From positions 372,001 through 436,000 of the forward strand of contig NZ_BDQK01000017.1 in the NCBI RefSeq assembly GCF_003864295.1: 64,000 nucleotides of DNA, given 5' to 3'. The stretch is from Aphanothece sacrum FPU1 (GTDB lineage: Bacteria; Cyanobacteriota; Cyanobacteriia; Cyanobacteriales; Microcystaceae). The stretch's first letter is position 1. Each line of letters begins with the position of its first letter. The position numbers were made by a program, and so were the translations under genes. Under the pieces are notes generated by a model. That model made no database searches, was not told the DNA's origin, and worked only from the letters and a program-made list of their open reading frames with translations. Positions 4,686 to 56,393 of the stretch are shown one piece after another.

Positions 4686-4790
4686 TTGTCTGAAATTCCT
4701 CTATATTGATCATAGATTGTTAATTAGCTGCTTTTTACCACAAATAATATAACATTCTAGAAAAAGATTTACAGATCCCACTCTGTCTAG

Positions 4791-4943
4791 ACCACAGACC
4801 TTATGTCTGATACTATAGGAACGAAGCCTCCTGAAGGGAGGCTAAATTAAACCCGCGTAGGCGGGTTTTGTTTTTATAGCTTAACCCTGAGCGGGTTTAA
4901 GCCCATAATTTCTAATAGTTTTATATACTATGTTCGGTAGAAC
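4791..4943 (+). mobile_element. Copy A of the 190-bp multi-hairpin element (left end missing)
   Basis: This copy fills much of the 4686-4989 gap. It holds hairpins AGAC/GTCT, GCCTCC/GGAGGC, AAACCCGC/GCGGGTTT and a TTAACCC/GGGTTTAA pair, and ends with GTTCGGTAGAAC, the inverse of the family's left terminus. The left terminal repeat is absent. A short GTTATCAG heptamer tract follows it. The family is described under 41240-41429. Confidence 0.7.
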
Positions 4944-4989
4944 TCAGTTATCAGTTAACTGTTATCAGTGAAGATAATGGGCAAAAGGA

Positions 4990-15713: not shown

Positions 15714-15872
15714 GGTTCTATCGGACTTACTATGCTAAATTAATAATTAATGACAGACCTTATGTCTTATCCTATAAAGACTAAATTCGCCTGCGCGGAC
15801 TAACTTCTAGGTTGCGTAGGCAACCTTTGTTTGTATAGCTTAACTATGAACGAGTTAAGGTTTGACATTAGA
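15714..15872 (+). mobile_element. Copy B of the multi-hairpin element (right end missing)
   Basis: Begins GGTTCTATCGGACTTACTAT, then AGACcttatGTCT, a decayed GTCC hairpin, GGTTGCgtagGCAACC and TTAACtatgaacgaGTTAA. It lacks the right terminal repeat. See 41240-41429. Confidence 0.75.
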
Positions 15873-16005
15873 CCCAAGCAGCAAAAATAGCCAGCCCAAA
15901 GAATCGCCAAGGAACAGCAACATTATTAAATCCTTGGATTACTTGATTCCACTTTGTTGCCTGCGGTGCTGTCGCTTGCAGCTTCGCCTCGCGATAACAT
16001 AACAT
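15868..16005 (-). CDS. Candidate 45-residue membrane peptide, or relic
   Basis: ATG at 16005, just 4 bp past the mutS stop, opens a 45-codon frame whose last 20 residues (NNVAVPWRFFGLAIFAAWV) look like one membrane helix. The stop coincides with the truncated edge of copy B. The N-terminal part lies in a sequence that looks repetitive (GCGAGGCGAAGCTGCAAGCG). It could be the tail of a disrupted membrane-protein gene. No family is recognised. Confidence 0.2.
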   Translation of the reverse strand: MLCYREAKLQATAPQATKWNQVIQGFNNVAVPWRFFGLAIFAAWV

Positions 16006-18704: not shown

Positions 18705-18801
18705 GATTCTACTGGACTTACTATGCTAAATTAATAATGAATAAAAAGCTAAAGCCTTATCCTATAGAAACAAAGTCCGACGAACGCGGACTAAATTATA
18801 G
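18705..18801 (+). mobile_element. Copy C of the multi-hairpin element (truncated)
   Basis: Left terminus TTCTACTGGACTTACTATG, AGCTaaAGCCTT, then the GTCCGacgaacgCGGAC hairpin; the sequence then diverges and the right half is missing. The rest of the 18664-19061 gap shows no gene. Confidence 0.65.
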
Positions 18802-19061
18802 ATACAGTATTAAATATTATGATTTTTTCAGGTACGTTATTAAATGGTTGTTTAGATTTCTGGTAATATTTTAGGGACGGCCTGCGATCTCTAAAAAGGA
18901 AAGCAAACTCAAGTTTTTATCAATGAGTTTTCGTCTAAAGTTTCACTCTTAACCTTTGTTTGGCCTTTGCTCTTAGATCCCTTTCCAAAAGCCAAGAAAC
19001 ATTGTGTTAGTCACAATGCCTTACGAATAAAGATGTCTGTCAAGAAAGAACTGGGTGTCTG

Positions 19062-22255: not shown

Positions 22256-22470
22256 TTTTTATTAATTAAAGTTAATAAAATATGAATATAGTTTATTGAC
22301 TTTCATTACTTAATATATATTATTAAAATACTCTAGGTAGAAAATGGAAGAACTATTATTACTGCAAGAAGCTTTAAGTATGATTTAAACTTGAAGATAT
22401 CTAACGTTTAGCAAAATCCATATACGACCCTAACAAAACCTTAACCCTAATCTGTTAATATAATTATTAA

Positions 22471-22660
22471 GGTTCTACCGGACAAGTTATGTTAAATCAA
22501 CGTCTACACCACAGACCTTATGTCTGATACTATAGAAACAAAGCCTCCCTTCGTCCGGCTAAATTAAACCCGCGTAGACGGGTTTTGTTTTTATAGCTTA
22601 ACCCTTCAAGGTTTAAGCCCATAATTTCTAATAGTTTTAGATACTAGGTTCGGTAGAACC
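22471..22660 (+). mobile_element. Copy D of the multi-hairpin element, full length (190 bp)
   Basis: Bounded by GGTTCTACCGGACAAG and CGGTAGAACC. The order is AGACcttatGTCT, left arm CTATAGAAACAAAG, a worn GCCTCC hairpin, AAACCCGcgtagaCGGGTTT, right arm TTTTGTTTTTATAG, and TTAACCC/GGTTTAA. The two arms can pair and enclose the middle hairpins. It is exactly as long as copy G. Nothing else is seen in the 22256-22693 gap apart from a 14-codon open frame at 22344. Confidence 0.8.
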
Positions 22661-22693
22661 ATTACTAATAACTTTTAATGGTAACTAAAAATT

Positions 22694-23689
22694 ATGTTTG
22701 ATCGCATTTTTACCTCTAGTTCTGAATCTGGAAAACCTAGCCTTCTTCGTCCCCGTAAAGGTGTAATTATTGGTGTGGGACAAGTAGGAATGGCCTGTGC
22801 TTATTCTCTTTTAATTCAAGATTGTTTTGACGAATTAATCTTACAAGATATTGCCGAAGATAAGGTAGAAGGAGAAGTCTTAGACTTGATTCACGGAATG
22901 TCTTTTTTACCTCCAACAGACCTTAAAGGGGGAACTCTGAAAAATGAGGGTAAAGATGCTGATATGGTTATTATTACAGCAGGAGCAGCACAAAAACCAG
23001 GAGAAAGTCGTTTAGAATTAGTCGGTCGTAATGTTAATATCTTCAAAAGTATTTTAGCTGATGTTGTGAAATATTGCCCTAATGCTATTTTATTAATTGT
23101 TAGTAACCCTGTCGATATTATGACCTATGCTACTCTAAAATTAACAGGTTTTCCTAAAGCGAGAGTTATTGGTTCAGGAACGATATTAGATACGGGTAGA
23201 TTTCGCTCTTTATTAGGCAAAAAATTTAATATTGATCCTCGTAGTGTTCATGGTTATATTTTAGGGGAACATGGAGATAGTGAATTTCCGGTTTGGAGTT
23301 TGGCTAATATTGGAGGAGCAAAACTTATTCCTGGAGAGTGGGAAGATTTACCCATTTCTGAACAAAATGAGTTAAATTCAGTTTTTGAAGAAGTTAAAAA
23401 TGCCGCTTATCAAATTATTAAACTTAAGGGTTATACTTCCTATGCTATTGGGTTAGCTGTTACCGATATTGTGAAGGCTATTTTACGTTCTCAAGAACGC
23501 ATTTTAACTGTGAGTAGTTTAATTAATGGTTTATATGGGGTGGAGGATATTTGTTTAAGTTTACCGACAGTTATTAATGAAAAAGGAATTCTTAAAACGG
23601 TTAATTTATCTTTGAACGAACAAGAACAAGCACAATTATTAAATTCTGCTAAAGTTCTAAAAGAAGTATGTGATCAACTTAAATTTTAA
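22694..23689 (+). CDS. ldh: L-lactate dehydrogenase
   Basis: 331 residues. The NAD-binding GVGQVG motif is at 27-32, with Asp after the second strand (LILQDIAEDK), indicating NAD preference. The specificity loop AGAAQKPGESRLELVGRN carries Gln at the position that is Arg in malate dehydrogenase, so lactate/pyruvate is the expected substrate. The active-site stretch GEHGDSEFPVWS contains the catalytic His. It would regenerate NAD in fermentation in the dark. ATG 22694 lies 33 bp after a repeat element, and no second start is needed. Confidence 0.93.
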   Translation: MFDRIFTSSSESGKPSLLRPRKGVIIGVGQVGMACAYSLLIQDCFDELILQDIAEDKVEGEVLDLIHGMSFLPPTDLKGGTLKNEGKDADMVIITAGAAQKPGESRLELVGRNVNIFKSILADVVKYCPNAILLIVSNPVDIMTYATLKLTGFPKARVIGSGTILDTGRFRSLLGKKFNIDPRSVHGYILGEHGDSEFPVWSLANIGGAKLIPGEWEDLPISEQNELNSVFEEVKNAAYQIIKLKGYTSYAIGLAVTDIVKAILRSQERILTVSSLINGLYGVEDICLSLPTVINEKGILKTVNLSLNEQEQAQLLNSAKVLKEVCDQLKF

Positions 23690-24747: not shown

Positions 24748-24969
24748 GTAGGGGCGGGTTTATTTAACTTTTTTGTGAGAATCATGGATTTGGTAAAAAA
24801 CCCAGGGCGGGTTTATTTAACTTTTTTGTGAGAATCATGGATTTGGTAAAAAACCCAGGGCGGGTTTATTTAACTTTTTTGTGAGAATCATGGATTTGGT
24901 AAAAACCCAGGGCGGGTTTATTTAACTTTTTTGTGAGAATCATGGATTTGGTAAAAAACCCGCCCCTAC
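24748..24969 (+). repeat. Four tandem 52-53-bp repeats with palindromic ends
   Basis: Units start at 24752, 24805, 24858 and 24910. Each runs GGGCGGGTTTATTTAAC...GGTAAAAAACCC and joins the next as CCCA|GGGCGGG. The block begins TAGGGGCGGGTTT and ends AAACCCGCCCCTAC, so its outer ends are inverted repeats. The single-unit version occurs at 63389-63460. It fills most of the gap before the CHAT gene, together with a repeated TAATTTTGTCTACCTACTTA motif at 25000-25050. Confidence 0.9.
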
Positions 24970-25067
24970 TACAAAAATCCGCCCCTACAAATTTTGTGTA
25001 ATTAATTTTGTCTACCTACTTATAATTAATTTTGTTTACCTACTTATTAGTAAACTGCGATCGTTTT

Positions 25068-33130: not shown

Positions 33131-33195
33131 ACGCCAACAGACTAAAGTCTGTGGCTATACGAACAAAGTCCGACGAGCGCGGACTTTCTGTTTAT
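33131..33195 (+). mobile_element. Copy E fragment of the multi-hairpin element
   Basis: Only AGACTaaAGTCT, the left arm CTATACGAACAAAG and GTCCGacgagcgCGGAC remain, with no terminal repeat. Confidence 0.6.
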
Positions 33196-39383: not shown

Positions 39384-39446
39384 TCCATACCCACCATCTT
39401 AAGTATTGTAGCTGATTATACATTTTATACCAAGATGTCGGGAGAG

Positions 39447-39589
39447 CCAGCCTTATCCTATAAAAACGAAGTCCGACGAGCGCGGACTTATTTGTAGGTT
39501 GCGTAGGCAACCTTTGTTTGTATAGCTTAACTCTTGAGAGTTAAAGTCTCTTATTGGTAATAATTTAGCATAACTTGTCCGGTAGAACC
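39447..39589 (+). mobile_element. Copy F of the multi-hairpin element (left end missing)
   Basis: AGCC hairpin, GTCCGacgagcgCGGAC, GGTTGCgtagGCAACC and the perfect TTAACTCTtgAGAGTTAA, ending ATTTAGCATAACTTGTCC then GGTAGAACC. The left terminal repeat is absent. It occupies the 39384-39693 gap, which has no gene. Confidence 0.8.
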
Positions 39590-41239: not shown

Positions 41240-41429
41240 GGTTCTACCGGACAAACTATGCTAAACTAACAATTAATAAAAGGCTAAAGCCTTATCCTAT
41301 AAAAACGAAGTCCACCTTCGTGGACATCCATTATAGGTTGGGTAGGCAACCTTTGTTTATATAGCTTAACTATGAACGAGTTAAGGTCTTTTATTTGTGA
41401 TGATTTAGCATAACTTGTCCGGTAGAACC
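41240..41429 (+). mobile_element. Copy G of the multi-hairpin element, full length (190 bp)
   Basis: Best copy. The termini GGTTCTACCGGACAAAC... and ...CTTGTCCGGTAGAACC are inverted repeats of about 26 bp (ATGCTAAA/TTTAGCAT continue the match). In order inside: AGGCTaaAGCCT, arm CTATAAAAACGAAG, GTCCACcttcGTGGAC, GGTTG/CAACC, arm CTTTGTTTATATAG, TTAACTatgaacgAGTTAA. Both arms can pair (with a G-U), so the whole can fold as TIR stem, two outer side hairpins, and a central stem with two inner hairpins. No ORF lies within. Confidence 0.85.
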
Positions 41430-44682: not shown

Positions 44683-44710
44683 TTGACAATGGATAATTGA
44701 TAATGGGACA

Positions 44711-44799
44711 ATTCATAATTCATAATTCATAATTCATAATTCATAATTCATAATTCATAATTCATAATTCATAATTCATAATTCATAATTCATAATTTA
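44711..44799 (+). repeat. ATAATTC heptamer tract (about 12 copies)
   Basis: Pure 7-bp tandem repeat between the phytochelatin synthase and phosphoesterase genes, with its mirror (AATTATG) at 45919-45952. Confidence 0.9.
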
Positions 44800-44825
44800 T
44801 TTAAACTTTACTTTTTAAGACAAAT

Positions 44826-50964: not shown

Positions 50965-51063
50965 AATGGACAATGGATAATGGATAATTCATAATTCATA
51001 ATGGACAATGGATAATTCATAATTCATAATGGATAATTCATAATTCATAATTCATAATTCATA
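50965..51063 (+). repeat. ATGGATAATTC/ATAATTC tandem tract
   Basis: Mixed GGACAATGGATAAT and ATAATTC units that run right up to the permease ATG. No ribosome-binding site can be read inside. Confidence 0.85.
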
Positions 51064-52245
51064 ATGTCTGTTTCTCTACCTCCTATTGTTCAAATTAGTC
51101 CTATACGTTGGATATACAAAAATCTATTTAGCACTTGGTATAACAGTCTTTTAACAGTTATTAGTCTGTTATTTGTATATTGGATAAGTTCAACTTTTTT
51201 GATTTGGGCCTTTACTCTAGCTCAATGGGGAGTCATTGGCGCAAATTTACGCTTATTTTTTGTTGGTCAATATCCCGTCGAATTATTATGGCGAACTTGG
51301 ACAACTTTGGCGATTATTATGGGTTTAGGAGGTTTATCTTGGGGTCTATTAATTCGTAGTCAACCTCTATTTAATCTTATTAATTTAACCATTTTAGGAA
51401 TTTTAGCAGCTTTGTCTATTTTTGTCGCTATTCCTGTCGGTATTCTGGCCACTCTTAAACTGCTAGGAATGCTAATTTTATTAGTTTTTATAGCATTTTT
51501 TGCACAAAAATTAGGTGAAAAAATTCCCACTCTAGTCACTTGGTTATCATTAATTTGGTTATCAAGTTTTTTTATTATTCTCTGGTTATTAGAAGGCGGA
51601 TTATTTTTACGAACAGTTAGATTAGATGAATTTAGCGGCTTAATGCTTACGCTTTTAGTCTCTGTTGTCAGTATTGTTTTATCCTTTCCTTTTGGGGTTT
51701 TATTAGCATTAGGAAGACAAAGTTCTTTACCCGTAATTCGTTGGTTATCTATTGCTTATATTGAATTAATCCGCGCTTTACCTTTAATTGGTATTTTGTT
51801 TATGGCTCAAGTCATGTTACCTTTGATTTTACCCGAAGGAGTGCGTCTAGAAAGGGTTGTAAGAGCGATGGCTGGTGTTACTTTATTTAGTGCAGCTTAC
51901 TTAGCAGAAAATGTGCGCGGGGGGTTACAATCCGTTCCTAAAGGACAAATAGAAGCAGCTAAAGCTTTAGGTTTAAATAGTGTTTTTGTTTTGACTTTTA
52001 TCGTTTTACCCCAAGCATTAAAAGCAGTTATTCCTAGCATTGTGGGACATTTTATTAGTTTATTTAAAGATACTTCCTTATTAGCTATTGTGGGATTAGT
52101 AGATTTATTAGGAATATCTCAATCGATTTTAGGTAATCCTAAATTTATCGGTCGTTATGCCGAAGTTTATTTATTCATAGCAATTATTTATTGGGTATTT
52201 TGTTATTCTATGTCTTGGGTAAGTCGTCAGTTAGAAAAAACATAA
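51064..52245 (+). CDS. natH: Amino-acid ABC transporter permease (NatH/AapM/BztC-like)
   Basis: 393 residues with about eight membrane segments; the second half carries the EAA loop (IEAAKALGLNSVFVLTFIVLPQALKAVIP). The N-terminal long extension fits the second permease of general/acidic amino-acid transporters (BztC/AapM). The partners (binding protein, other permease, ATPase) are not adjacent, and the start lies directly on the repeat tract. Symbol is by resemblance to the N-I transporter and tentative. Confidence 0.8.
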   Translation: MSVSLPPIVQISPIRWIYKNLFSTWYNSLLTVISLLFVYWISSTFLIWAFTLAQWGVIGANLRLFFVGQYPVELLWRTWTTLAIIMGLGGLSWGLLIRSQPLFNLINLTILGILAALSIFVAIPVGILATLKLLGMLILLVFIAFFAQKLGEKIPTLVTWLSLIWLSSFFIILWLLEGGLFLRTVRLDEFSGLMLTLLVSVVSIVLSFPFGVLLALGRQSSLPVIRWLSIAYIELIRALPLIGILFMAQVMLPLILPEGVRLERVVRAMAGVTLFSAAYLAENVRGGLQSVPKGQIEAAKALGLNSVFVLTFIVLPQALKAVIPSIVGHFISLFKDTSLLAIVGLVDLLGISQSILGNPKFIGRYAEVYLFIAIIYWVFCYSMSWVSRQLEKT

Positions 52246-52251
52246 AATAAC

Positions 52252-52335
52252 GGTTCTACTTTACTCTTAAACCCGCGTAGGCGGGTTTTGTGTTTATAGC
52301 TTAACCCTTAAGGGTTTAAGTTTATTATTTTGGTT
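52252..52335 (+). mobile_element. Copy H of the multi-hairpin element (internal deletion)
   Basis: Starts GGTTCTACTTTAC, then AAACCCGCgtagGCGGGTTT, arm, and CTTAACCCTTaAGGGTTTAAG; the central part of the family is missing. Confidence 0.6.
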
Positions 52336-56162: not shown

Positions 56163-56330
56163 GGTTCTATCGGACAAGTTATGCTAAATTATTACAAATG
56201 ATAGACCTTAATTCTTAAGAGTTAAGCTATACAAACAAAGGTTGCCTACGCAACCTAGAATGGCTGTCCGCGCAGGCGGACTTAGTCTTTATAGGATCAG
56301 ACATAAGGTCTGTCATTAATTATTAATTAG
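56163..56330 (-). mobile_element. Copy I of the multi-hairpin element (inverted)
   Basis: In reverse order: GGTTCTATCGGACAAGTTAT end, TTAATTCTtaAGAGTTAA, CTATACAAACAAAG arm, GGTTGCctacGCAACC, GTCCGCgcagGCGGAC, arm, AGACataagGTCT; the far terminal repeat is missing. Confidence 0.8.
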
Positions 56331-56393
56331 TAGGGGCATAATTATCTATTATGCCCCTCAACAAATTAGAACTTAAAATAACTCTTGACTAAT

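Follow-up and report, generated by a model that had tools for sequence, protein, structure and literature searches.

The interspersed repeat represented at positions 22,471 to 22,660 is probably a two-layer element: the shell of an ISL3-type MITE carries a four-hairpin core, which would be the cognate fold of a Y1 (HUH) transposase of subclass 1.2, in a REPtron-like arrangement. The window, that is, the whole 64,000-nucleotide stretch analysed, spans C17:372001-436000 of the 4.49-Mb genome of Aphanothece sacrum FPU1. As the preliminary description had recognised, 22471-22660 is a single copy of a repeat of about 190 bp. To recover further copies we aligned 30 of them (alignment A1) and derived a covariance model, termed R1, which was used together with a model of the core alone, termed R2. 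The features of the window are as follows.

22471..22660, + strand: focal element copy, ISL3-type MITE shell with four-hairpin core (R1 match, 168 bits)
22471..22497, + strand: left terminal inverted repeat, 27 bp, one mismatch relative to the family consensus
22634..22660, - strand: right terminal inverted repeat, 27 bp, inner half diverged, GGTAGAACC end intact
22512..22526, + strand: hairpin H1, CAGAC/GTCTG (sequence, RNA and DNA folds, family stems)
22530..22543, + strand: 5' arm CTATAGAAACAAAG (pairing with the 3' arm)
22543..22559, + strand: hairpin H2, damaged in this copy (sequence, family stems, DNA fold)
22566..22585, + strand: hairpin H3, AAACCCG/CGGGTTT (family stems, covariation, DNA fold)
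22584..22596, + strand: 3' arm TTTGTTTTTATAG (sequence, folds)
22597..22617, + strand: hairpin H4, CTTAACC..GGTTTAAG (sequence, family stems, DNA fold)
4765..4944, + strand: element copy (R1, 142.3 bits)
15714..15905, + strand: element copy (R1, 149.3 bits)
18705..18882, + strand: element copy, decayed (R1, 71.4 bits)
33137-33195: element fragment
39404..39589, + strand: element copy (R1, 158.2 bits)
41240..41429, + strand: element copy, well kept, used as the structure reference (R1, 223.1 bits)
52231..52318, strand not given: core remnant (R2, 38.4 bits)
56163..56346, - strand: element copy (R1, 177 bits)

The focal copy lies between a methyltransferase-domain gene and a lactate/malate dehydrogenase gene, the start codon of the latter being 33 bp beyond the element, and its flanking 8-mers, ATTATTAA and ATTACTAA, agree at seven of eight positions. 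At gathering score, the scan of the window against Rfam returned a cobalamin riboswitch alone (RF00174, 52727-52894, 56.5 bits), and the elements themselves matched no family; around the focal copy (22300-22800), a single sub-threshold CRISPR-DR28 match (E 0.99) was recovered and nothing at E <0.9. Other repeats in the window comprise a tandem one of 53 nt and short ATAATTC-type ones in arrays (24752-24984, 44706-44800 and 50968-51062).

The family comprises at least 150 scored R1 matches in this genome, including one overlapping pair on C4, and at least 45 in a genome of another genus of the same family (G007). Between 27-bp inverted ends, each unit has H1 followed by a 14-nt arm, then H2 and H3 separated by a linker, and finally the second, matching arm and H4. 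These ends (GGTTCTACCGGACAAGTTATGCTAAAT) occur at 119 genomic sites with at most three mismatches, against none for a reversed control pattern. A 21-mer of the ends was found in one of 58 relatives, namely this genome itself, and was not found in the genome contig collection, from which records near this genome may be absent; a DNA similarity search of plasmid and phage collections with the repeat gave no match. By a simple ORF test, the midpoints of none of the 150 copies fall inside ORFs of at least 100 aa, compared with 2210 of 3000 random points, and 51 of the 150 lie between convergent genes versus 18 between divergent ones. Relative to co-directional flanking genes, 48 copies are in the same and 33 in the opposite orientation (p 0.12), indicating no clear strand preference. 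In six copies (L016, L034, L056, L058, L063 and L064) another palindromic repeat, TAGGGGTCAACGGCCGTTGACCCC or a variant of it, lies around H3/H4 with a GGCAAGATGCGGCGTTCCA-type stretch nearby, which looks like either nested insertion or the swapping of a module.

The outer shell of the element is an ISL3-type MITE, a kind that is already known, as follows from the shared ISL3 ends, the 8-bp duplications and the existence of versions lacking the core. Exact 8-bp target duplications flank 19 of the 78 copies with both ends intact, against a mean of 0.28 and a maximum of 3 in 500 rounds of random pairing, and 10 of 21 copies in G007. The preliminary description had suggested looking for an insertion sequence (IS) with the same ends, and such a search recovered a 1418-bp IS in a relative (G012). 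It has five end pairs there, three of which were read, one with an exact 8-bp duplication, and it codes for an ISL3 transposase (DDE_Tnp_ISL3, E 7.3e-73). In A. sacrum itself, a 326-bp relic bears such ends and a 57-aa frame with an ISL3 fragment, the ends of both the IS and the relic being of the type GGTTCTAC(C/A)G(A/G)AC. One search of this assembly with the G012 protein gave partial matches only, namely the 326-bp element, a gene that is truncated and contains a stop, and a third, weak hit. Core-less versions with ISL3-type ends are represented by an 82-bp element in this genome (C16:337796-337877) and by 161-163-bp MITEs in other genomes (L267, L269-L273, L281 and L282), with L267 also holding an ISL3 element of 1427 bp flanked by an exact 8-bp duplication. 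We considered as an autonomous element of this genome two end-like sites 2.87 kb apart (C17:281667-284537, L214), and discarded it, as they enclose TerD-like frames (by eye) and no recognised transposase; these facing MITE-type ends could be either a pair of solo remnants or a composite. According to the accessible part of PMC11448079, a MITE of 187 nt from Microcystis, which has 8-nt repeats, has been attributed to ISL3, and it resembles the present element in its ISL3-like inverted ends, its 8-bp duplications and its dozens of copies or more. They differ in that the Microcystis ends start with GGCTCTTCG and ours with GGTTCTACCGGAC, and in that our element holds a four-hairpin core that is also found independently.

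This core is a separate and more widespread repeat, and in the loci read it occurs without clear ISL3 ends. Across the order, R2 matches were recovered in 120 of 291 genomes and 53 of 122 genera; in the phylum sample, 35 of 292 had matches at E 1e-5, every one of them in the family or order of A. sacrum. We printed 28 R2 loci, several of them picked by score, and the core was visible in 27, the remaining one (L298) being offset. All 27 share one layout, in which an outer palindrome, an CTACACAAACAAAG-type arm, an inner palindrome, a linker, a second inner palindrome, the matching arm and a further outer palindrome follow one another, while the palindromes vary freely between loci. Sites resembling ISL3 ends (13-mer, at most three mismatches) lay within 150 nt of 3 of the 28 loci, with no convincing pair. 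The foot of the arm is ATAG in the MITE cores of A. sacrum, and elsewhere GTAG in 19 of 27 loci by eye (13 of 27 by script) and ATAG in 6. The arm sequences were not found in a search of open-access papers.

The same kind of fold also accompanies a transposase gene, which in A. sacrum lies on another contig.

C1:259356-259763: Y1 transposase gene, 135 aa from the first Met

This gene is flanked by tandem cores, two upstream and four downstream, the last one weak, so that arrays of four-hairpin units surround it rather than one subterminal hairpin per end as in IS200/IS605; the stems and foot of these units differ from those of the MITE cores in the same genome. The protein carries the motifs DHIH, WQ and YIKNQPQHH, which fit subclass 1.2 as given in Table 1 of PMC6006769. 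It scores 74.5 bits against the NCBIfam IS200 model NF033573 (cut-off 55), falls below the cut-off for REP-associated tyrosine transposases (NF047646, 27.8 bits versus 80), and matched the ISHp608 transposase 2a6m (E 1e-13) and seven other chains in sequence-profile searches. Judged by these motifs, the putative partner enzyme matches TnpA_Y1 subclass 1.2.

To place this association in a broader context, we surveyed ten genomes with 76 Y1_Tnp matches, of which 30 were scanned together with L215 and ten later stretches (L428 repeating L326). Among genes bearing the subclass 1.2 motifs, seven of nine had an R2 core within 500 bp (weak at L332, none at L338 and L434), versus none of 31 distinct Y1 loci lacking the motif (18 of another type and 13 not classifiable), where one weak match lay about 1.2 kb away. 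In relatives from three genomes (G044, G096 and G137), half a unit is present on one side of the gene and a whole unit on the other, by eye. A scan of the genome contig collection recovered 79 loci of Y1 relatives, 71 of which retain the Y-x-x-x-Q-x-x-H-H motif. In 31 loci an R2 core was detected no more than 300 bp from the gene, on both sides in 11 of them, and the remaining 48 had none at that distance; by identity, 29 of 50 relatives at or above 43% had such a core, versus 2 of 29 below. Core density around the 79 loci was 1.04 per kb near the gene and 0.028 far from it. Because the cores are intergenic, we recomputed the enrichment per non-ORF base, which gave 10.0 to 10.5-fold across three flank sizes. 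A letter-free pairing descriptor, which recognises 54 to 82 of the 150 A. sacrum copies depending on its setting, was run at three settings over 54.8 kb near and 497 kb far, with near-to-far match counts of 17:3, 30:16 and 31:6 and matches in both identity groups.

The association extends to quite different arm sequences, as in a Microcoleus locus (L421), and to other phyla. Loci with non-cyanobacterial titles had a core nearby in 15 of 23 cases, an Anaerolineae locus (L418) being without a match; Poribacteria, Gemmatimonadetes and Armatimonadetes are represented by one metagenome-assembled locus each, and L347/L427 and L348/L426 are apparently the same loci in two collections and thus not independent. 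Three genomes with at least 15 cores each (G007, G056 and G199) had no recognised subclass 1.2 gene. In addition, more distant subclass 1.2 genes at L406, L407 and L410 lie directly 3' of an apparent conserved frame of unknown function (by eye). The recurrence of the same kind of fold beside a Y1 gene in cyanobacteria and in other bacteria suggests that the fold is the target of the enzyme. The preliminary description would have been refuted had no transposase been associated with the repeat; a Y1 gene adjoins the cores.

The fold itself was examined at the level of single copies, isolated cores and the family. As RNA, the focal copy folds at -60.9 kcal/mol (z -6.9, none of 200 shuffles as good) and as DNA at z -5.0; the 41240 copy reaches z -9.0 as RNA, both strands alike. 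The preliminary description had drawn a nested scheme, in which the arms enclose two hairpins and the other two lie outside. This arrangement is reproduced in the DNA folds of two cores with the ends removed (22510-22617 and 41278-41386), each showing H1, arms enclosing two hairpins, and H4. It does not always appear in minimum-energy folds of whole copies, where terminal repeats and arms dominate, and in the DNA fold of the whole focal copy the arms pair differently. Seven cores from five genomes folded as DNA gave z of -3.5 to -13.3 (in one, 1 of 200 shuffles was as good), and the full nesting was the minimum-energy fold in those two cores only; the arms are unpaired in L215, both inner hairpins are fused into one long hairpin in L293, and the pairing of L196 and L395 departs from the drawn scheme.

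The named matched stems are present in the family, namely GTCCAC/GTGGAC, GTCCGC/GCGGAC, GCCTCC/GGAGGC, GGTTGC/GCAACC, AAACCCGC/GCGGGTTT, the TTAACTCT/AGAGTTAA type and AACCCTT/AAGGGTT. The focal copy itself has a damaged H2 (GCCTCCCTTCGTCCGGC); it is in the 4765 copy that the GCCTCC/GGAGGC stem is clean. We tested covariation, as had been proposed, in an alignment of 159 copies (139 from A. sacrum and 20 from G007), which left out 11 of 150 and 1 of 21 matches, respectively, the former for falling outside 165-202 nt. By mutual information, 13 of 40 tested pairs exceeded a tree simulation of independent columns (per-pair P<=0.01, uncorrected for the 40 tests), with rates fitted by parsimony and the tree taken from the same alignment as tested; two of these pairs lie in H1, four in H2, five in H3, one in H4 and one in the arms. 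The matched changes of the nested fold are thus real. A set of 32 cores, 31 of them distinct, spanned eight genomes; in it, 94.3% of cells were paired, double-changed cells numbered 117 versus 39.1 +/- 4.9 in shuffles, and the score was 0.400 versus 0.179 +/- 0.011 shuffled and at most 0.096 with partners slid, in a test that favours the structure since the latter was drawn from the same sequences. No excess was seen in how many pairs had a double change (13 versus 11.7 shuffled) or in how many pair types occurred (30 versus 32.3). Together with the same fold in other letters across many genera, the covariation supports the earlier proposal that a mechanism acts on structure, as RNA or single-stranded DNA, besides the ends.

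Paired changes can also arise without selection, if one arm is copied from the other while single-stranded. Such template switching, or hairpin-templated repair, would yield both matched changes and flipped loops, and several features are as it would predict. Both loop orientations occur on the same stem in three hairpins: CTTC 10 / GAAG 2, CTGC 21 / GCAG 1 and CTAC 1 / GTAG 1 on the GTCCGC/GCGGAC stem of H2; GTAG 111 / CTAC 3 on H3, across four 5' stem variants; and TTTA 28 / TAAA 3 on H4. One copy (C1:92007, row L040) now has H2 as a perfect 20-bp palindrome, and these flips and this palindrome point to DNA-level events. The lack of a G-U preference agrees with such copying, as does the slower change of stems on the tips of the tree (3.5-5.4 changes per site versus 10.1 at unpaired core sites, from one tree of elements that may recombine), which also means that constraint or repair may act after insertion. 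Yet constant repair should act on tips and inner branches alike, whereas double changes are relatively rarer on tips: for H1-H3, double changes to single breaks stood at 15:33 on inner branches versus 6:108 on tips (p 3e-5), and of the 20 independent branch-by-helix double changes, inner branches carried 13 and tips 7. This surplus of double changes on inner branches suggests that structure is kept in spreading lineages, while settled copies mostly decay. Template switching also does not explain how the four hairpins and two arms come to be shared, in different letters, by many genera, nor why the fold lies beside one transposase class. Although this process could make part of the paired changes, it is unlikely to be their sole source.

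A functional RNA, in which transcribed copies would fold and act in cis (as a terminator or on mRNA stability) or in trans, appears less probable still. The intergenic position of all 150 scored copies and the excess between convergent genes agree with such a role, as do RNA z values of -6.9 to -9.0, the focal copy folding more strongly as RNA than as DNA; yet an intergenic position is equally expected of tolerated insertions, the two strands of the 41240 copy fold near-equally, orientation shows no clear bias against co-directional genes, and the elements match no Rfam family at gathering score. A structured RNA read from one strand is expected to tolerate G-U pairs more than A-C mismatches. 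In H1-H3, where a Watson-Crick pair had changed on one side, the outcome was G-U 35 times and A-C 48 times (p 0.19), so that neither strand shows a G-U excess, which makes single-stranded DNA the likelier form. Single-stranded DNA is accordingly favoured over RNA, given also the lack of strand preference and the adjacent gene for a single-stranded-DNA transposase. As a separate observation, the H2 hairpin at L279:608-631 scores 37.3 bits against CRISPR-DR28 (gathering score 35) and is a possible source of false CRISPR calls; a CRISPR identity was rejected, as the units are dispersed and not regularly spaced.

Lastly, a plain ISL3 MITE with incidental inner palindromes would account for the ends, the 8-bp duplications and the copy number and has parallels in the core-less MITEs and the Microcystis MITE, but it is very improbable, being already disfavoured by a core that occurs without clear ISL3 ends and that covaries.

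We compared the preferred reading, a fold of the Y1 enzyme carried in an ISL3-type shell, with known repeat systems. Elhai and co-workers reportedly described in 2008 small dispersed repeats of Nostoc, 21-27 nt long, with compensatory changes and partly within minitransposons; they resemble the present repeat as small cyanobacterial repeats with matched changes, and we know of no transposase partner for them. REP, REPIN and BIME repeats with their TnpA_REP (RAYT) enzymes, the REPtrons, are likewise intergenic multi-copy palindromes clustered at a Y1 HUH gene, and REP dimers with GTAG ends inside and structured spacers are on record, according to the accessible parts of PMC3733652, PMC6006769 and PMC8266576. 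As those sources describe them, a REP is one palindrome of 20-40 nt and TnpA_REP a class-2 enzyme with Y-x-x-x-N-P, whereas here the unit is four hairpins with a closing arm helix (about 110 nt) and the partner is IS200-like with Y-x-x-x-Q. The GT[AG]G foot of the REP hairpin is missing in A. sacrum, which has ATAG instead, and the GTAG REP dimer was therefore set aside as an analogue only. In the portion of PMC6006769 available to us, subclass 1.2 is found mostly in Cyanobacteria and Bacteroidetes, is entered as 'no' for REP, and is generally without terminal IS200-type structures. Our genes agree with that subclass in DH[IV]H, WQ, YIKNQ..HH, low copy number and occurrence in cyanobacteria, and differ from it, as published there, in that many are flanked by four-hairpin repeats and that motif-bearing relatives occur in Chloroflexi and others. 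Searches of open-access papers turned up no account of the four-hairpin repeat or of any tie between it and subclass 1.2.

These comparisons suggest how the two layers could have come together. The shell, about 40 bp on each side including the 27-bp inverted ends, would be a non-autonomous ISL3-type transposon moved by an ISL3 DDE transposase that left the 8-bp target duplications. The core, which extends over about 110 nt from H1, through H2, the linker and H3 within the two arms, to H4, would be the cognate repeat of TnpA_Y1 subclass 1.2 and would fold when the DNA is single-stranded, for instance on the lagging-strand template. Folded single-stranded DNA is what Y1 enzymes of the IS200/IS605 group work on (accessible part of PMC6006769), and the TnpA_REP of E. 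coli makes its cuts close to REP structures (accessible part of PMC8266576); by analogy, the Y1 enzyme may bind and cut at the folded core. Were the enzyme to read the fold, stems would stay paired while their letters drift. In this lineage the core was presumably captured inside an ISL3 MITE and then spread by the ISL3 route, in that order. As the MITE moves by its ISL3 ends, Y1 activity is unnecessary to explain its copy number.

At a broader level, and with rather less assurance than for the two-layer reading itself, we lean towards the view that an arm-closed four-hairpin single-stranded-DNA fold serves as the substrate of subclass 1.2 in cyanobacteria, in Chloroflexi and at single loci of Poribacteria, Gemmatimonadetes and Armatimonadetes. 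It would form a composite REP-like system in which pairing is kept over sequence, raised to high copy number here by an unrelated DDE (ISL3) element. A Y1 class listed in print, in the accessible part of that source, as having no partner repeat would thereby gain a candidate one, and an abundant cyanobacterial palindromic repeat its likely enzyme. Since many copies show matched pair changes within the fold, how an HUH enzyme reads its substrate may be learned from natural variation, and a core of single-stranded-DNA type nested in a DDE-type MITE would represent a second route by which such repeats reach high copy number.
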